Made by a program: the position numbers and the translations under genes. Source: Okeania sp. SIO2B3 (lineage in GTDB: Bacteria > Cyanobacteriota > Cyanobacteriia > Cyanobacteriales > Microcoleaceae). From it: a stretch of DNA of 64,000 nt. Below are positions 6,565 to 42,185 of the stretch, piece by piece. The stretch is from assembly GCF_010672525.1 (NCBI RefSeq), contig NZ_JAAHGH010000002.1:204583-268582 (forward strand). The letters are read 5' to 3'. How positions within the stretch are numbered: the first letter of the stretch is position 1; every line of letters begins with the position of its first letter. The notes beneath the pieces were generated by a model. That model was not told where the DNA came from. It made no database searches and worked only from the letters and a program-made list of their open reading frames with translations.

Positions 6565-6678
6565 TTTATCTATTGTCCAATAGTTACAGAAGTTTCCGCG
6601 CATTATGAAGTAGATATGCACAAGCAAGTGCGGCAGCTATATACTTTCATGCAACAAAGCCATTATTAATTATTAATT

Positions 6679-6767
6679 AGGACTTACGCAGATACGCTAT
6701 ATATAGTACTCATAACTATTGTCCAATAGTTACTGGACTCTATACACAGTGTCTTTGCGTAAGTCCT
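6679..6767. mobile_element. Family E element, 89 bp, containing the array palindrome
   Basis: AGGACTTACGCAG at the left and TTTGCGTAAGTCCT at the right form perfect-ended inverted repeats around 89 bp, exactly the length of the copy inside the nrdJ intein. Its centre holds AACTATTGTCCAATAGTT, the same palindrome that punctuates the 71-bp array upstream, so the array motif may have spread with this element or the reverse. The rest of 6565-6920 is AT-rich and ends in a CCCCTACTCC pyrimidine tract. Confidence 0.7.
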
Positions 6768-6920
6768 GTTAATTATTCGGTAATTATTATAATTTATAAC
6801 GCGAGCAAGATGCTCGCATTAATTGTCAAACACCAACCAGGTGGTTGCTATATGTTTACTACTCCCCCGCTCCCCTACTCCCCTACTCCCCCACTCCCCT
6901 ACTTTCTCCTCAGTTCGCAG

Positions 6921-15276: not shown

Positions 15277-18213
15277 ATGAGTGTTAGAGTTCGTCTGGCC
15301 CCAAGTCCAACAGGAAACTTACATATCGGTACAGCCAGAACAGCTGTATTTAACTGGTTATTTGCCCGAAACCAGAAAGGAAAATTTATCCTCAGAATAG
15401 AAGATACAGATATAGAGCGATCGCGTCCAGAATATACAGAAAATATTATGGAGGGGTTGACCTGGTTAGGATTAGAATGGGATGAAGGGCCATCCTACCA
15501 GTCTCAACGGTTAGAATTATATCAAACAGCCACTCAAAAGTTACTAGACAAAGGATTAGCGTATCGCTGCTATTGTACCGCAGCAGAACTAGAGGAAATG
15601 CGGGAAGCTCAGAAAGCGAGAAAAGAAGCACCCCGCTATGACAACCGCCACCGTGACCTTACACCTAAACAACAAGCAGCTTTTGAAGCAGAAGGAAGAC
15701 AGCCAGTAATTCGGTTTAAAATTGACAATGACCAAATAATTACCTGGAAAGACCAGGTAAGAGGGACAGTAACCTGGAAAGGCAGCGACTTGGGTGGAGA
15801 TATGGTCATCTCTCGTGCCGCTAGTGGAAAGACAGTAGGACAACCCCTCTACAATATGGCAGTGGTAGTAGATGATATGGATATGGAAATTACCCATGTA
15901 ATTCGTGGTGAAGACCATATCGCCAATACAGCTAAACAAATATTACTTTATGAAGCCCTAGAGGGAAAAGTACCAGAATTTGCTCATACACCTCTAATTC
16001 TTAATCAAGAAGGACGCAAACTGTCAAAACGGGATGGAGTAACTTCAATTTCTGATTTTAAGGAATTAGGTTTTATCCCGGAAGCACTAGCAAATTATAT
16101 GTGTTTGCTTGGGTGGACACCTTCAGACTCAACCCAAGAAATATTTACCCTGACAGAAGCAGCTCAACAGTTCACTTTTGAGAGAGTGAATAAAGCAGGG
16201 GCTAAGTTTGACTGGGGTAAGTTGGATTGGATAAATAGTCAATATTTACATAATTTACCAGTAGGACAACTGACTGATAGATTAATTTCCGTATGGCAAA
16301 AAGCAGGATATGAACTAGACCCACAGAGCGATCGGCCTTGGTTAGAACAATTGGCCGCATTGATTGGACCTAGCTTGACTCGTCTCACAGATGCAGTAGA
16401 AATGAGTAAGTTATTCTTCTCCCCCACTGTAGAACTGGATGCAGAAGCCACTGAACAAATGCAGAAAGAAGATGCTGTAAAATCTATTAATGCTATTATT
16501 GAGGCGATGGATACTGATGCACCTCTGCGAGTGGGTGATGCACAAAAAATTATTAAAGGGGTGACTCAGGAAATTGGTGTTAAGAAAGGTATTGTTATGC
16601 GCTCTCTAAGGGCGTCTTTAACTGGTGCAATGCAAGGACCAGATTTAATTCAGTCATGGTTACTCCTACATCAAAGGGGTTTTGATATATTACGCTTCAA
16701 AAAAGCTATAGGTCAGAAGGTTGAAGAAAGTAAAAAAGTAAAGACTCCTGCTAATAGTAGTAATAAAGGGTTTGCTGAAATAAAAACAGCAACTTCAAAA
16801 ACGTCTGTTCCACCAAAACAACAAGCTCAGAAAATAAAAGCATCAATTACTCTTGCTGGTGAGTCTCAAAGTGTTAAACCAACTACAGATAAAACACAAA
16901 CAACTACTCCTACGGGAAAATCTAAAGTTGTTGAACCGACTGTAGAGAAAAAGAAACAACCTACAACTCCTACAAGTGAATCTAAAAGTGTTAAACCAAC
17001 TATAGATAAAGCACAAGCAACAACTCCAACTGGGGAAACTAAAGGGGTAAAACCTGCTGTAGAGAAACAGACACAACCTACGACTCCTGTAGATAAGTCT
17101 AAAAGTGTTAAACCAACTATAGATAAAGCACAAGCAACAACTCCAACTGGGGAAACTAAAGGGGTAAAACCTGCTGTAGAGAAACAGACACAACCTACGA
17201 CTCCTGTAGATAAGTCTCAAAGTGTTAAACCAACTATAGATAAAGCACAAGCAACAACTCCAACAGGGGAAACTAAAGGGGTAAAACCTGCTGTAGAGAA
17301 ACAGACACAACCTACGACTCCTGTAGATAAGTCTCAAAGTGTTAAACCAACTACAGATAAAGCACAAGCAACAACTCCAACTGGGGAAACTAAAGGGGTA
17401 AAACCTGCTGTAGAGAAACAGACACAACCTACGACTCCTGTAGATAAGTCTCAAAGTGTTAAACCAACTACAGATAAAGCACAAGCAACAACTCCAACAG
17501 GGGAAACTAAAGGGGTAAAACCTGCTGTAGAAAAGCAAGCAACAGCAACACCTACAGTTCCAACAACTCCAACAGGGGAAACTAAAGGGGTAAAACCTGC
17601 TGTAGAAAAGCAAGCAACAGCAACACCTACAGTTCCAACAACTCCAACAGGGGAAACTAAAGGGGTAAAACCTGCTGTAGAAAAGCAAGCAACAGCAACA
17701 CCTACAGTTCCAACAACTCCAACAGGGGAAACTAAAGTGGTCAAACCTGCTGTAGACAAACAAACATCAAAAGAAACAACTCTTACTACGAAACCGCAAA
17801 CCGAAGAACAAAAAACTTCTGCTCAAGTTGAAACTTCAACCTTAGATGACCAACCATCTGTAGAAACAACAACTAATGAAACCGTAGAGAGCGATCGACT
17901 ACAAAAGATTAAAGAAAAATTGATCGATACTTTTGCTTACTTTCCTGATTACATTAGTCAATTCTATCAAAAATATCAACGTCAGCTTAAAGTAATTGGT
18001 TCGCTGATCTTAATCATATTAACCTTCAGGTTAATTCTTGGTTTCCTAGAAGCTTTAGAAGGAATTACTACTTTATCAATTAGCTTTGAATTGATAGGTA
18101 TGGGATATTCAGTATGGTTTGTTTACCGTTATTTGCTGCGGAAATCTAATCGGCAAGAATTATTAGATAAAATTGAAGATATCAAAGCAGATATTGTTGG
18201 TAAAAAATCTTAA
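15277..18213 (+). CDS. gltX: Glutamyl-tRNA synthetase with repetitive linker and membrane CAAD domain
   Basis: Residues 1-485 are a complete discriminating or non-discriminating GluRS: class I signature [10 protein letters not shown] (HIGH-type), [15 protein letters not shown] (KMSKS-type) and an anticodon-binding domain ending near [13 protein letters not shown] low-complexity Thr/Pro/Lys linker of nearly 400 residues follows, built from near-identical repeats. The last about 105 residues form a CAAD domain: an amphipathic helix, TM ([15 protein letters not shown]), a short loop, then [18 protein letters not shown] and a charged tail ending DIVGKK. CAAD domains are known to anchor some cyanobacterial aminoacyl-tRNA synthetases, including GluRS, in thylakoid membranes. 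Usual GluRS is about 480 residues, so this one is twice as long. GluRS also feeds tetrapyrrole synthesis through Glu-tRNA. Confidence 0.95.
16981..17565. repeat. 117-bp coding tandem repeat, five units, in gltX linker
   Basis: Units begin at 16981, 17098, 17215, 17332 and 17449. Each encodes 39 residues of the pattern [20 protein letters not shown] followed by [18 protein letters not shown]. Differences between units are a handful of silent or conservative changes, so expansion is recent. The period keeps the reading frame, and unit number probably varies between strains. Confidence 0.93.
17500..17724. repeat. 75-bp coding tandem repeat, three units, in gltX linker
   Basis: Units start at 17500, 17575 and 17650, with a diverged continuation from 17725. 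Each encodes 25 residues of [19 protein letters not shown] plus VPTTPT. It is a second expansion that partly overlaps the last 117-bp unit and reuses its [13 protein letters not shown] block. Confidence 0.92.
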
Positions 18214-36446: not shown

Positions 36447-39400
36447 TTACAATGTATCACTAGAAGCTTTTAACTCACAAACCATTCCAGAACAAGCGGG
36501 GTCTTGGGGTCCCATCTCTGGTAATTCACTCGCTAACACATAAGCATTCATCAACTCGGAAAAATTATCGGACTTGCGACGACGCAATACATCTTCTTGC
36601 ATTTTTTCATATTCCTCCTGAGATATGTGTTCAAATGGCAACCGGGGAAACGGTGCATCAAACCGCGCTAACAACGCTGAGGAAATATAACCCTCGTCAT
36701 CGCGAATTGCTTCATAAATGCGTTTGCCCAAAGGTTCAATTTCTGCTTCCGTTAATAAAATGGTACTACTGCTGTTGTGAGTCGTCCAATGTTGTTGTAC
36801 TCCCATGTAAAAATCAAACATAGCAGTAGCGCTGAACTTCTCAATGGCAATCTCTTCAACTCCAGGTAAATCTATCCAAGATACCTGTACTGGAATTTCT
36901 ACTAACCATTCTTTAGCGCGATCGTCAAAAGGATCGTTCAGTAAATTTCCATTTTCATCTTTGCTTGACTGCCCAGGAATCACGGAATAACCGTAGTCAA
37001 GACAAGCTAATGCTACGGGGTCATTTTTGGCAAAAGTAATCCGTCGTACCCACCACAACCCAAAAGGAGGATGCCAACCGGGAGCTGCATTTGTTAGCAG
37101 AGATTTGGTGCCACTGGGTTGAACTGTTGTACAACGGTTTGGACGTTTGAGGTTGTGGCGATCGCAATAATCCCATACTCCCCGATGTACTATTTCGCGC
37201 CAACGGGTCAAATATTCTGCTTCCTGTTGTTTAAATTCTAGACCTTGAATAGTTGCTGGACGACCTGCTTGCCACCAACGCAACCATTCAATGCCAAAAG
37301 CTTTTACAAAAAAGTCAAATAAACCTGTGAAAGATACTCCCACAATTGGGTCTAATTCTCGACTATAACGATAGCGAGGTTCGACGAATTTATGGTTAAG
37401 TAAGGTTGCCACAGAAAGGGCGCCTGCGGTAAAAGCTTCTTCTTGTTCTTTGTGGTTATTTGGGTCAATTTGATTGAGATGAATTTCTGACAAATTACAA
37501 TTTCCTGTCAAGGTATTGCCAAAAACACCTTTATGAAATTCTGGTTCTTCAAAACAATAAGTGTCATGTATTCCTGGTAATTCTTCAACACTTTCAATTG
37601 TTTGATTGTTCTGTTTTAACTCTGTAGACTGGGCATCTTGCCCGGTCATCAATTTACAAGGAATTTCACTACAATCAGTTATTTGTAAGTAGTAAAGGTC
37701 TTTATTTCTTTCTCTTAAATTTGTAGTAGAACCGCGACTTGTCATTGAATTTACTGATGCACGAATACCACATTTTGTCAACAGTAATTGTAGTCTTTTT
37801 GCCTGCTCATAATCAGACAAATAAATTATAATTCCATGACCTTTAGTATTAGAACCGTCTGCATCTGCTAATCCGGCGATAAAAGCTAGAATAGCTGGTT
37901 TATTCCAATTAGCAATGGTATTTAAAGCATCAGGTTCAGTTTGTAGACGACGCAGTAATTCTTCAGAGAATCCTAAATCTGTGACATCAACAAAAGCAGG
38001 TAGATAATTATAGTTTCGTTCTACTGACTTATTACCAGCAACAATTAATTCAGCTTTGTGAGAATCAAGCCGAATTTTAGCATTACCATTTTTGTCTAAT
38101 GTTCCATCACCTACTGCCACGCCTAGTGTATAGGCGTAAGATAAATTGATAGAATTTCCATCCTGATAATCTATGACAAAAGGTTCGGTATGTAAAACAT
38201 ATTTGCTATGAGTTAGCAAATCTTTTGTTTGTACTTCTTGATAGTTTTTACCAAACCTATCTTTAACAAAAAATCGGTGATATTCTGTCACATCTAGATA
38301 GGAACCATCCCCAAATTTAACCCGGTATAATTTTCTGTCTTTTCCTGTTTTAAAAGGAATTATTTGACTCCAATTTTTGCCGTTCCAAATTTCAACTTTT
38401 TGACCAACAACATCTTTGATTTTGTGAATACTGTCGCGAGTAATTAATAGAGTATCTCCGCTGACACAGTGAAAATTTGAACCAATAATTTCGCCGCAAT
38501 TGTGAGTTAAACAACCATTAGCAATGAAAGAATTAGTTAAAGGAACGTGCAAATCATAAACAACTTCTTCTCCAAATTCTTCAACTTTTTTCACCTTTGA
38601 GGTAAACTTAGAATTAATGGTTGACTCAAAATAATTAGGTAATGGTTTTAGCAGCCATTTTTCAGCTTTAATATTCTTACTTGGCGATAGTGGAAAGCCA
38701 ATTAATTGTTGAAATAAATTAAAGTTAAAAGTAGAGAGAAATAGTCCATAACTGCCTCGGTATAAGCTGATTTTCTCAGTTCCATCAACAGTTGTATAAG
38801 GCACACCTCTGTAACCTTTTTCCCTAATTAATCGAACTGTACTAATAATGCCTAAATTAGATAGAATCAATTGAATTTGTTGGAGTAGCTTTTCCGAACG
38901 CATAGTTAGTTTGATTCTTCTGGAATCTTTATCTACTGAACCATCAGCACTAAAAATTCCTTGTAAAAAACCAATTAAAACTTCCTGAGATTGACTAAGA
39001 AAATTATTAGGAAGTTCTTCTTTTCCAACTATACCTAGATCGGTAAAAAACTTTTCTAATTTAGGAGATTGAGTCTGGAATTCATAGGACTTACGGACGG
39101 ACACTAAATTTACTGAGGGCGAATGCCATTCGCCCCTACATATGGCGTTTTCAAGGTGAATTGGCGTAAGTCCTGATTCACAGACTCCTTTATGCGGTGT
39201 AGTTACATATTCTTTTCCTGTAATAACTGCTTTTCCAATAATATTGTAGGCAGTTTCATACTCATCTTGATTAAAAACAAACCCTTTAGCAAAGTGGTCT
39301 TGCTTCCTATGAAGGGGAAATGTTTTTGGAGAGTTGCTCAAATCCCCACAAAAACAACTTCTGACTTCTGACTTCCCCTCCTGGGAGGGGTTAGGGGTGG

Positions 39401-42185
39401 GTTGACTTCTGACTTCGTTAAATCCATCTCCGTACCACCAACCAAGCATTTGAGCTTGAGCAACAGAAATAGTACCTTTGCCAAAATTACCTGCTCCTCT
39501 CTGAATATAAATATTGTCGTCATCAGTTAAATCTTTAGTGCTAACCCAACCTCGACTGGTAAAATGTTGATGGTTTGCAGTACATCGCATTTGCATTCCA
39601 TTGGTTAGAAGAATTTTGTAGGTGGTTTTAACTCCTGTAGAAAAAGCGATCGCATCTGTTAACTTCACACCGGATAAACCTACGGAACGCAAATCTACCA
39701 ATGCTTTGAATTGTTTACCTACTAAATCCTGAATCGGAATTAACCCTTGGTCTGTAGATACTAAAGTATCCCCTGAATGGCAAGGGTTCAACCCTAATCT
39801 TGCTAACCGATGTTCAAGTTCATCATTACTAATATTTGGATAATGTTCTTGAAACCATTTTTTGGCGTTATCTTGTCCATAAGCTTTAATAAAATCACTC
39901 TTTATTTCTGGGGTGGAAAGTAGATCGCGATTAGCACGAGCAACTGCTTCACCTGCCCACTGAATAGCACCTTCACCAGAATAAAACTGTTTTCTCACTG
40001 CCTCAACACATTCTTCTAATGTTGGTTTGTGGTGGAAAACATGGGTATGATTTGCCATTCGCAGAGCATCTCTTTCCGGATCAATACCCCAGTTACCGTT
40101 TTCATCTTGTCGCCAGAGATTATCCTTCGCTACAGCAAAGAGGCGATCGCTACTATTGCCCTGGCGCATTCCGGCACTGTTATGCACCAGTAAACCATCA
40201 GCAATAAATTCGTGGTCTCCCTCTACTTCGATATCATAAGTTTCAGCTTCACCAGCAGCAGCAACAAATTGTACTTCTATCGGCAACCAGTGAGGATTAA
40301 CTAAATCTTCTGCTATCAAAGTATCCCAGTTAGCATCCCGGAACTTTCCTGGTCTGTGTTTTGGATCGACCCAAATTACATTAGCACAAGACACAGTATT
40401 CGGTTTCCATCCGGCAGCAGCTAGCTCTTTCACAAATTGATAAGGTAATGTTAGACCATTCTTTTTAGCTAACCTGATAGAAAAGCTATCGCGAACAGCA
40501 AACTGATTAATCAAGCCAACTGTAACTGCTTGAGACTGCAAACCCTGAATGTGAAGATAGTGGCATCCATCATAAAGTTTATCTCTTCCTTTGATTGTTC
40601 TTGGTTGACGTTCGTGTAACTTTGTCGCAATTCCCAAAGAAAGAGCTACTTTTTGAATTTCTCGTAAAAATTCTAACTTGTTCGAGTTTACCAGTACATT
40701 TCGCGAGGGAGTGCCATCAGCATCACTTAAACCTGCTAAGAAAGCAGCCCGAATTTCTCGACTACCTCTCCAAACAAACTCAGGAATTACAGGGCATCCC
40801 CAAGGTTGTTTATATTGTCCGAGTTCTATGGCTAGTTCTTTGCGATAAACATTGATATTACAATGACTACCTTGAATCTTGATAGCAGGATTATAACCCA
40901 TGCTACTAAGGATTCTCAAAACCTTTTGTCCTAAATCTCCCTGTAAGCGTTCAGTGGAAAGGGCAAAGCTAACTATTCCACCTCCACCATTACGTCGCTT
41001 AGTAGACTCTATATCAGCATGACCATCACCAATAAAGAAGCCTACTAACCAAGCATGATCTGTCGTTGCACAAGGCATTCCTTTAGTATGAGGAACTGAA
41101 ATTAAGCGATCGCCTGGTTGAAGTTCGCTTGCATATTTCCAGGTGTAAGATTTTAAACTATTGTAGACGGCAACTCGGTGGTTAGTAGTACAACGAATCG
41201 AGGTAACGTGAGTACGAATTTCCACAATACCCTGTTTACCTTGAATAAATTTATTGACTACCGGACGATATTCACCCCTGGAAGTTAAAACTAAGTCTCC
41301 CACTTGAATATCTTGAATATTTTTCATGCCATCAATCGCCGAAACCTTTGTTTCATAAGCAATACAGCGACGAATATTGCCGGCGACCACACAGGCTGCT
41401 GCTTCGTCAATTAGCAAACAACACTCCACAGAATTTAATTGTCGCCCAATTGCTTGATTTAAAATATTCCCACAACGTTGATACAATTCTGGCAATTTTA
41501 CCGGATTCGCAACACCACCAAATCCTTTTAACTTTTCTCCCGCAGGTCTGACATCGTTCAAGTCAATAATGACTTTGACTTCACCGGAAAATCGTTCATT
41601 AGTTGACAATTCTAACAAAGCTTGATATGAACCTACCCAACCTTGACGACTGTCTCCAACATAAATTTCTGCCTCGTCTCCATCGAATTTTAGTTCTGTG
41701 AACTCCCGACGTAATTCAGCAGGAGTAGAACCAATTTCACCCCGCAATATAATATTTAGGTGATTTCTAATTGGTGGCAGTTGATTTATATAATCTCCTT
41801 CCAATACTGCTCCGGTACCGCAACCCATCATTGCTAAGTCCATTAATAGACCAAAGGCACGCCAGTCCATTATATTTGTGGACGAACAATTGTAGGCCCC
41901 TGAAAAATTCTGTGGTTGTGTAATCCATTCTGTGCCCCCTACCCACAACCAACGGCCAGAAGACATGGCTTTTAGTTGACTCTGCATCCGATAGAGCAAG
42001 TCTGTTTCTTCGGGGGTAAGTTGGCCTAATTTTCTCAGGCCATTAATTGTGCGATCGCATACTTCTACCCAAGTCTCACGGCCATTTTCTGTTTTACGGC
42101 TATAAGTTCGATAAAATACTGGATTTGCTGTAGGTGCTGTTTTGGGAAATTCACCCTGATGTACTCTCTCTAGTTCTCGTACCAT
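36447..42185 (-). CDS. nrdJ: Class II (B12-dependent) ribonucleotide reductase containing three inteins
   Basis: A 1912-residue precursor; removing three inteins (396, 428 and 323 residues) leaves a 765-residue adenosylcobalamin-dependent reductase that makes dNTPs for DNA synthesis. Extein landmarks are GAYNCSSTN (first redox Cys), NP-CGEIIGSNFH-CNLSE split across two inteins (thiyl-radical Cys and second redox Cys, by analogy with the Lactobacillus monomeric enzyme), TTVQPSGTKSLLT, and the C-terminal shuttle pair DPACSGMVCE. Start ATG at 42185; the short N-terminus MVRELERVHQGEFP fits the family. All exteins read in one frame, so activity depends on splicing of all three inteins. T. erythraeum ribonucleotide reductase is known to carry several inteins, so this is a lineage trait, but the crowding here is extreme. 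Confidence 0.95.
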   Translation of the reverse strand: MVRELERVHQGEFPKTAPTANPVFYRTYSRKTENGRETWVEVCDRTINGLRKLGQLTPEETDLLYRMQSQLKAMSSGRWLWVGGTEWITQPQNFSGAYNCSSTNIMDWRAFGLLMDLAMMGCGTGAVLEGDYINQLPPIRNHLNIILRGEIGSTPAELRREFTELKFDGDEAEIYVGDSRQGWVGSYQALLELSTNERFSGEVKVIIDLNDVRPAGEKLKGFGGVANPVKLPELYQRCGNILNQAIGRQLNSVECCLLIDEAAACVVAGNIRRCIAYETKVSAIDGMKNIQDIQVGDLVLTSRGEYRPVVNKFIQGKQGIVEIRTHVTSIRCTTNHRVAVYNSLKSYTWKYASELQPGDRLISVPHTKGMPCATTDHAWLVGFFIGDGHADIESTKRRNGGGGIVSFALSTERLQGDLGQKVLRILSSMGYNPAIKIQGSHCNINVYRKELAIELGQYKQPWGCPVIPEFVWRGSREIRAAFLAGLSDADGTPSRNVLVNSNKLEFLREIQKVALSLGIATKLHERQPRTIKGRDKLYDGCHYLHIQGLQSQAVTVGLINQFAVRDSFSIRLAKKNGLTLPYQFVKELAAAGWKPNTVSCANVIWVDPKHRPGKFRDANWDTLIAEDLVNPHWLPIEVQFVAAAGEAETYDIEVEGDHEFIADGLLVHNSAGMRQGNSSDRLFAVAKDNLWRQDENGNWGIDPERDALRMANHTHVFHHKPTLEECVEAVRKQFYSGEGAIQWAGEAVARANRDLLSTPEIKSDFIKAYGQDNAKKWFQEHYPNISNDELEHRLARLGLNPCHSGDTLVSTDQGLIPIQDLVGKQFKALVDLRSVGLSGVKLTDAIAFSTGVKTTYKILLTNGMQMRCTANHQHFTSRGWVSTKDLTDDDNIYIQRGAGNFGKGTISVAQAQMLGWWYGDGFNEVRSQPTPNPSQEGKSEVRSCFCGDLSNSPKTFPLHRKQDHFAKGFVFNQDEYETAYNIIGKAVITGKEYVTTPHKGVCESGLTPIHLENAICRGEWHSPSVNLVSVRKSYEFQTQSPKLEKFFTDLGIVGKEELPNNFLSQSQEVLIGFLQGIFSADGSVDKDSRRIKLTMRSEKLLQQIQLILSNLGIISTVRLIREKGYRGVPYTTVDGTEKISLYRGSYGLFLSTFNFNLFQQLIGFPLSPSKNIKAEKWLLKPLPNYFESTINSKFTSKVKKVEEFGEEVVYDLHVPLTNSFIANGCLTHNCGEIIGSNFHCVSGDTLLITRDSIHKIKDVVGQKVEIWNGKNWSQIIPFKTGKDRKLYRVKFGDGSYLDVTEYHRFFVKDRFGKNYQEVQTKDLLTHSKYVLHTEPFVIDYQDGNSINLSYAYTLGVAVGDGTLDKNGNAKIRLDSHKAELIVAGNKSVERNYNYLPAFVDVTDLGFSEELLRRLQTEPDALNTIANWNKPAILAFIAGLADADGSNTKGHGIIIYLSDYEQAKRLQLLLTKCGIRASVNSMTSRGSTTNLRERNKDLYYLQITDCSEIPCKLMTGQDAQSTELKQNNQTIESVEELPGIHDTYCFEEPEFHKGVFGNTLTGNCNLSEIHLNQIDPNNHKEQEEAFTAGALSVATLLNHKFVEPRYRYSRELDPIVGVSFTGLFDFFVKAFGIEWLRWWQAGRPATIQGLEFKQQEAEYLTRWREIVHRGVWDYCDRHNLKRPNRCTTVQPSGTKSLLTNAAPGWHPPFGLWWVRRITFAKNDPVALACLDYGYSVIPGQSSKDENGNLLNDPFDDRAKEWLVEIPVQVSWIDLPGVEEIAIEKFSATAMFDFYMGVQQHWTTHNSSSTILLTEAEIEPLGKRIYEAIRDDEGYISSALLARFDAPFPRLPFEHISQEEYEKMQEDVLRRRKSDNFSELMNAYVLASELPEMGPQDPACSGMVCELKASSDTL
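37500..38468 (-). other. Intein 3 of nrdJ (LAGLIDADG type)
   Basis: 323 residues between ...GSNFH and CNLSEIH. It starts CVSGDTLLITRDSIHKI (block A Cys1), has TEYHRFFV (block B-like His) and two LAGLIDADG motifs (YTLGVAVGDGT and AFIAGLADADGS), and ends VFGNTLTGN with Cys as the +1 residue. The penultimate residue is Gly, not the usual His; such inteins exist but may splice by an altered C-terminal step. The +1 Cys is the second redox cysteine of the reductase. Confidence 0.93.
39085..39175. mobile_element. Family E element inserted in frame within intein 2
   Basis: The inverted ends AGGACTTACG (39086) and CGTAAGTCCT (to 39174) bound 89 bp. With one extra base on each side it is 91 bp, flanked by the direct repeat ATTCA (39080-39084 and 39176-39180). 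91+5 = 96 bp = 32 codons, so the reading frame survives and no stop is introduced on the minus strand. Deleting it yields PHKGVCEFQTQSPKL. The inserted peptide runs from SGLTPIHLENAIC to VSVRKSYE. Confidence 0.88.
39310..39420. repeat. Family M repeat with GC-rich cassette inserted in frame within intein 2
   Basis: AAGGGGAAATGTTTTTGGAG, GCTCAAATCCCC, ACTTCTGACTTC, CTCCTGGGAGGGGTTAGGGG and GACTTCGTTAA occur in the same order as in the intergenic copy at 26529-26633. On the coding strand it gives NEVRSQPTPNPSQEGKSEVR and on to FPLH, just after the first LAGLIDADG-like motif (WYGDGF). No stop arises. Exact insertion ends and target duplication cannot be fixed by eye. Confidence 0.75.
40179..41366 (-). 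other. Intein 1 of nrdJ (LAGLIDADG type)
   Basis: 396 residues between ...VAGNIRR and SAGMRQG. It starts CIAYETKVSAIDGMKNI, has CTTNHRVAVY (block B), two DOD motifs (WLVGFFIGDGHA and AFLAGLSDADGT), and ends IADGLLVHN with Ser as +1. All splicing residues (Cys1, block B His, His-Asn end, Ser+1) are present, so splicing should be normal. Confidence 0.95.

Follow-up and report, generated by a model that had tools for sequence, protein, structure and literature searches.

nrdJ and its three inteins

The window, a 64,000-nucleotide stretch of the Okeania sp. SIO2B3 genome lying in contig C112, encodes on its minus strand an adenosylcobalamin-dependent ribonucleotide reductase whose gene, nrdJ, holds three inteins, the second of which carries a MITE. 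The features concerned are given by window coordinates.

36447..42185, minus strand: nrdJ open reading frame (ORF), adenosylcobalamin-dependent ribonucleotide reductase with three inteins, 1912 aa (NCBIfam TIGR02505, E 2.3e-195)
40179..41366, minus strand: intein 1 of nrdJ, of a type that, among 10 aligned nrdJ genes, only SIO3I5 has as well
38499..39782, minus strand: intein 2 of nrdJ, 428 aa, the MITE carrier (boundaries Cys1 to HN, then Cys)
39486..39782, minus strand: N-terminal splicing (Hint) part of intein 2, approximately residues 1-99 (profile match to the DnaB mini-intein 4o1r)
39423..39446, minus strand: LGWWYGDG, residues 113-120 of intein 2, which we take to be the first LAGLIDADG-type motif
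39345..39425, minus strand: second dispersed repeat of intein 2, also in frame, EVRSQPTPNPSQEGKSEVRS (core with the most frequent matches, approximately 39371-39416)
39176..39180, unstranded: target-site duplication ATTCA, right copy
39085..39175, minus strand: MITE, 91 bp, with inverted termini, translated as ...GLTPIHLENAICRGEWHSPSVNLVSVRKS... (from copies, termini, duplications and alignment)
39080..39084, unstranded: target-site duplication ATTCA, left copy
38937..38969, minus strand: second LAGLIDADG-type motif, FLQGIFSADGS, residues 272-282 of intein 2 (within the Pfam LAGLIDADG_3 match)
38499..38600, minus strand: C-terminal splicing part of intein 2, approximately residues 395-428 (DnaB mini-intein match; Asn428, then Cys)
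37500..38468, minus strand: intein 3 of nrdJ (boundaries called on the ORF)
6678..6768 (C112 211260-211350), unstranded: 91-bp element with the same termini and target-site duplication TTAAT, its interior by eye without the GGGCGAATG core

Intein 2 matches Pfam Intein_splicing (8.8e-15) and LAGLIDADG_3 (4.2e-17, residues 268-336). The splicing blocks expected of a LAGLIDADG-type intein are present, and the terminal splicing residues (Cys1, the C-terminal His-Asn and the +1 Cys) are all there. The MITE, whose termini are TAGGACTTAC and GTAAGTCCTG (family version, CAGGACTTACGCA), lies between the two LAGLIDADG motifs and outside both splicing parts. As the original prediction had it, the 91-bp element and the 5-bp ATTCA duplication add 96 bp, or 32 codons, without a stop (approximately residues 202-233), and because the two together come to 96 bp the frame of intein 2 is kept. 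It had also been proposed that deletion of the insert restores a smooth sequence beginning HKGVCEF; in agreement with this, relatives without the insert have HKGVYEF at that place. The second dispersed repeat in intein 2 has at least 43 matches in its own genome (best 40 of 1165 candidates scored) and, in the alignment, is missing or shorter in several relatives.

The 32 codons had been expected to be absent from other inteins. This held for 14 of the 16 aligned inteins, in which the exact site is empty, but not for Okeania sp. SIO3I5, which carries the MITE at the same site and in the same orientation and phase as the window. Conservation of the same residues in inteins unrelated to the repeats was looked for and not found. 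The window and SIO3I5 also have in common the GDLSNSPKTF stretch of intein 2. Their two MITE copies are 86% identical, as against ~93% for the surrounding intein, with differences at 12 of 99 nt that fall into five synonymous and five nonsynonymous codons and create no stop. For the MITE copies, dN is 0.083 and dS 0.33; for the rest of intein 2, the values are 0.039 and 0.22. Under neutrality, 12 random changes would give so few nonsynonymous codons and no stop with a P of 0.012-0.032. The peptide was kept after insertion into intein 2, as seen in this small sample of 12 changes. The endonuclease of SIO3I5 intein 2 is probably dead, because its second motif reads SANAS in place of SADGS, whereas both acidic residues are kept in the window.

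Several other features were observed in these genomes. Intein 3 of SIO3I5 nrdJ (L076) has an in-frame insert, SVISYQLSVIS...VGWVERSETQHAPYCGGVYPTNKQ, where relatives have the first endonuclease motif; presumably it resembles another dispersed cyanobacterial repeat. A stretch of the window's own intein 3 (37590-37675) was suspected by eye to be a repeat, and a search of its own genome at E ≤ 0.001 (best 40 of 67 candidates) returned only the stretch itself. DnaB intein 1 of the window genome (C112:372469-374821) is 784 aa long and by eye contains several repeats of ~80 aa. A protein named by eye as nucleotide-sugar epimerase/decarboxylase-like, an unusual host, seemingly contains a 428-aa intein (L174:10723-13026, C228). 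Within the window, a glutamyl-tRNA synthetase-like ORF (by-eye name, 15277-18213) has a long C-terminal extension with many copies of a repeat listed at 21 letters, and an ORF that by eye is NTPase/pentapeptide-repeat-like (959-2905) contains a run of LIHADLILAK repeats.

The MITE family and its in-frame copies

Own-genome searches returned at least 43 matches to the MITE at E ≤ 0.001 (best 40 of 451 first-look candidates scored), and its 13-bp terminus occurs 364 times in the 10-Mb genome, as against 0 times for the reversed control. Of 40 terminus pairs sampled in the own genome, 30 stand between perfect 5-bp duplications, compared with 15 of 1560 mispaired flanks (~1% by chance); removal of one doubled row gives 29 of 39. 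Among pairs sharing at least eight 8-mers with the window copy, a loose likeness criterion for which the termini alone can suffice, the figures are 28 of 37 and 10 of 1332 mispaired. On contig C112, 16 of 18 terminus pairs 90-131 bp apart have a perfect 5-bp duplication; these 18 come from 23 pairs less than 400 bp apart, five of them (153-391 bp) being left out. The modal length is 91 bp (24 of 37 copies), and short AT-rich targets are common. Because 29 of the 39 distinct sampled pairs carry perfect 5-bp duplications against ~1% by chance, we call the family a MITE, that is, a non-autonomous insertion sequence (IS) derivative: it is short (91 bp), lacks a transposase, has inverted termini (CAGGACTTACG.../...CGTAAGTCCTG) and high copy number, and leaves empty sites in relatives. 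The original description of the insert as a transposable-type repeat, a selfish element within a selfish element, is thus borne out by inverted termini, the 5-bp duplication, many copies and empty sites.

A candidate partner IS (L177) is 1397 bp long and has the same termini, a TCAAA duplication and a degenerate transposase fragment; it shares only the termini with the MITE. The fragment matches NCBIfam IS701_2 with an E of 9.5e-18 and 64.7 bits, below the 250-bit cut-off. Two other terminus pairs were rejected as partners, as they contain ABC-permease-like and methyltransferase-like genes, and among the three only L177 has transposase-like fragments. As a lead only, an IS701-like transposase acting on CAGGACTTACGC termini with 5-bp duplications is perhaps what moves the MITE.

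DNA searches of the window genome and its relatives yielded 61 copies, which were checked in all six frames; nine rows are open for at least 50 codons on both sides, seven in phase +2 and two in phase -0. Further loci came from a peptide search with the +2 translation and are hence biased to that phase. In all, family members lie in frame at six protein loci, one being nrdJ intein 2 (in two genomes). Another is a magnesium-chelatase H-type protein (TIGR02025), in which the MITE is present in five genomes and the site is empty in four of nine aligned. In the window genome (L168:1093-5223; C112:561093-565223), this protein contains two in-frame copies, arranged in tandem and truncated on the right, within a loop that other simple repeats also fill; a single copy is present in four relatives and none in another four, and the duplication, where the right end is intact, reads TGAAA by eye. 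A polyketide synthase (PKS; L021:914-3100, C175) has an in-frame copy with a TGAAA duplication in a loading-type module. There seems to be a deletion adjoining this copy, because less than 200 bp separate the two matching halves as against ~940-960 bp in homologous PKSs. In an Ap4A phosphorylase of two Okeania genomes (L239:602-1633, L241), the MITE is in frame in the C-terminal domain, with TTATA as the by-eye duplication. The two phase -0 hosts, both named by eye, are an open stretch that resembles a membrane protein (L020), in which the left end of the element is cut, and a PKS-like protein (L111), with ATATT as its by-eye duplication. Two candidates were rejected. The 218-aa plus-strand ORF of L020 is by eye a text of repeats, the -0 copy lying in an 825-codon open stretch on the opposite strand, and the 57 and 41 open codons on either side of the copy in L013 were judged to be chance.

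The H-type protein passes TIGR02025, scores 983 of the 1300 bits of the PRK12493 cut-off and reaches 706 bits against the Synechocystis-type ChlH (4zhj); in 5 of 14 genomes it has no match at E ≤ 1e-60. For these reasons it may be a second, divergent H subunit, with a standard ChlH possibly lying below the threshold, and its reading as the sole, essential ChlH was withdrawn. What stands is that an ordinary, unspliced protein carries the MITE in frame in five genomes.

Could the element be a selected mobile peptide, similar to the Rickettsia palindromic elements, with length and open frame kept because it lives in proteins? The sum of 91 and 5 to 96 bp, the modal length, the six protein loci, the use of two phases by the nine long-ORF rows and the small number of nonsynonymous differences that separate the two nrdJ copies are all in keeping with it. 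However, most copies are intergenic and many have stops in every frame; among the 91-bp copies, phase +2 is open in 6 of 24 and phase -0 in 7 of 24. Moreover, the length of 91 bp may reflect one master copy, and a survey with the +2 peptide favours that phase. We hold this account to be unlikely. Insertions in genes seem to be strongly weeded out, because ORFs of at least 150 aa make up 62% of C112 yet only 1 of its 18 paired copies is within a long ORF. The in-frame copies that remain would sit in variable loops or, in the case of nrdJ, in an endonuclease domain that may decay freely.

The original prediction further held that inteins act as a safe harbour, collecting repeats as their self-removal protects the host enzyme. 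In favour of a special refuge, there are two dispersed repeats in intein 2, whereas alignments of the nrdJ extein parts are nearly gapless, and the SIO3I5 intein 3 insertion presumably resembles a cyanobacterial repeat. On C112, DNA made up of 16-mers in at least five copies amounts to 1.67% of intein, 0.81% of extein, 0.49% of other coding and 12.8% of intergenic sequence. This enrichment was assessed on one 669-kb contig (C112) and three further inteins, and its signal comes from one intein: all such intein DNA on C112 belongs to nrdJ intein 2, and 9 of the 10 inteins examined have none at five or more copies (DnaB intein 1 has 375 nt at three or more). Of 304 other ORFs, 11 carry at least 40 nt of repeat DNA. 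The same MITE occurs on the same strand and in the same phase in three unspliced proteins and in the other open phase in two more, none of which is claimed to be essential, or active with its insert. As a rule, the safe harbour is not supported, and it strikes us as rather unlikely; the intein looks like one tolerant landing place and not a special refuge.

Intein alleles and the host tree

At E ≤ 1e-20, 11 of the 61 genomes searched in the family contain intein 2, as do 12 of 291 in the order. Three of the latter are weak, partial matches (G035, G043 and G274; 35-38% identity), which were left out of the 16-sequence alignment. The window genome has four relatives in Okeania, among them O. hirsuta, SIO1I7 and SIO3B5; SIO3I5 has the same GTDB genus code as Trichodesmium erythraeum. 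In the rpoC2 tree, SIO3I5 falls outside a group formed by the five Okeania genomes and supported at 100/100, and the nrdJ exteins reject the window and SIO3I5 as sisters (AU p = 4.6e-5 and 5.1e-5 in two tests).

Intein 2 tells a different story from its host. With the inserts removed, it rejects the placement of SIO3I5 on the host side (AU 0.00096, KH 0.0044) and also the monophyly of Okeania (AU 0.0023), which both O. hirsuta and SIO3I5 break. In the SH test, the host-side placement is excluded by the C-terminal part (p = 0.018) and by neither the whole intein (p = 0.055) nor the N-terminal part (p = 0.062). The branch uniting the window and SIO3I5 has an SH-aLRT of 97 and a bootstrap of 66. 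As sister of the SIO3I5 intein, the window and SIO1I7 are not separated by AU; the C-terminal part prefers SIO1I7, and the shared inserts favour the window. For intein 1, nucleotide identity between the window and SIO3I5 is 93.8%, as against 47.7-49.0% with the eight other aligned genes, and the flanking extein parts of the two are 82.7% and 89.1% identical. One nrdJ insertion site is thus occupied by two intein types.

Transfer of intein alleles between Okeania and Trichodesmium-side lineages is well supported, because intein 2 conflicts with exteins and host and the same pair of hosts has an intein 1 type in common. Since exteins and rpoC2 separate the hosts, yet the SIO3I5 intein 2 departs from its host, the filled intein most likely crossed from one lineage to another with the MITE aboard. 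Homing may have been the route, judging from known intein behaviour; ordinary recombination fits equally.

Under purely vertical descent, the MITE would have entered intein 2 before the Okeania and Trichodesmium sides split, and every other lineage would have lost it precisely. This agrees with the site and phase common to the two hosts, with the 86% identity of the MITE copies, below the ~93% of the surrounding intein, and with the failure of the SH test on the whole intein to exclude the host tree. Against this stand the several exact losses needed, one duplication copy included, together with the AU and KH rejections and the rare intein 1 type common to the same two hosts, and we regard such a history as quite improbable. 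Two independent insertions are barely credible: short AT-rich targets are common for the family, but the copies agree in base, orientation and length, and their hosts share the GDLSNSPKTF stretch and the intein 1 type besides.

Proposed history and known systems

The history that we favour, and consider likely, is a single MITE insertion into nrdJ intein 2 with an in-frame gain of 32 residues, passage of the filled allele between the Okeania and Trichodesmium sides, and tolerance as the factor common to the loci. First, a MITE without a transposase of its own, and perhaps dependent on an IS701-like one, inserted once into the endonuclease part of intein 2, as the duplication and the empty sites show. 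One strand and phase of the MITE being open, the intein gained a 32-residue stretch between its LAGLIDADG motifs with the frame kept. Because the splicing blocks are untouched, intein 2 most likely still splices. The filled allele would then have passed between the two sides, possibly by homing. The loci, at least six in number, may have in common that each insert lies where it can be tolerated, in a loop or in a domain that is free to decay; self-removal of the intein would not be the shared factor.

A bolder reading, plausible in our view though just short of probable, is that the translated MITE rides the mobile intein as a vector into the same gene of another species, and that the family is a frame-neutral portable peptide (91 + 5 = 96) in at least six proteins, including the magnesium-chelatase H-type protein. 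If this is true, an intein carries a transposable repeat, with its peptide, between bacterial lineages. The locus is a natural experiment on the tolerance of an intein endonuclease domain, and it offers the same natural peptide in excised and non-excised settings, open to direct comparison.

The constituent kinds (MITE, intein and in-frame palindromic element) are known. In the open-licence literature searched, which misses most subscription journals, there is no report of a MITE inside an intein or of a filled intein whose sharing contradicts the host tree; the combination of a MITE in an intein with the filled intein in two lineages thus appears new in the open literature searched. A cyanobacterial likeness is the DnaB intein of Trichodesmium erythraeum, for which Yang, Meng and Liu reportedly described large tandem repeats in 2004. 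There, as in the DnaB intein of the window genome with its ~80-aa repeats, extra repeated sequence is tolerated in a cyanobacterial intein; however, the Trichodesmium repeats are tandem and internal to the intein, whereas the Okeania insert is a dispersed transposable repeat with a target duplication.

Fungal Prp8 HEN(+)extra inteins have extra linker or repeat stretches, described as of unknown origin, beside their splicing and endonuclease domains (PMC5784728). In what that source describes, the stretches are not traced to a mobile element, whereas the Okeania insert is a MITE. QMITE insertions of Coxiella burnetii are at times in frame inside ORFs, with no intein among the targets that PMC5896051 describes; here one target is an intein. 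IStrons join a group I intron and an IS into one selfish element whose splicing makes insertion harmless (PMC4227781). They are described as RNA splicing joined to an IS, whereas in Okeania the splicing is that of a protein and the element has no transposase. A further case is the 'MITEtron' of Candidatus Thiomargarita nelsonii, a MITE in a group I intron of the core gene dsrA with copies across the genome (PMC4853749). Both cases nest a MITE in a self-splicing selfish element within a core gene; the 'MITEtron' host, as described, is an RNA intron, whereas the Okeania host is an intein, the MITE is translated as part of it and two lineages carry the filled element.

Rickettsia palindromic elements are short palindromic mobile repeats that lie in frame in unrelated protein genes and give rise to a peptide insert (PMC10969869). 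Here, too, unrelated protein genes carry in-frame insertions, at six loci. As described from Rickettsia, those elements are ~150 bp long, whereas the Okeania MITE is 91 bp, has a clear 5-bp duplication and IS-like termini, is mostly intergenic and counts an intein among its targets. By this analogy, and with no claim of membership, the MITE family appears to work like the Rickettsia palindromic elements, being frame-neutral and giving peptide inserts, and it would represent their cyanobacterial counterpart.
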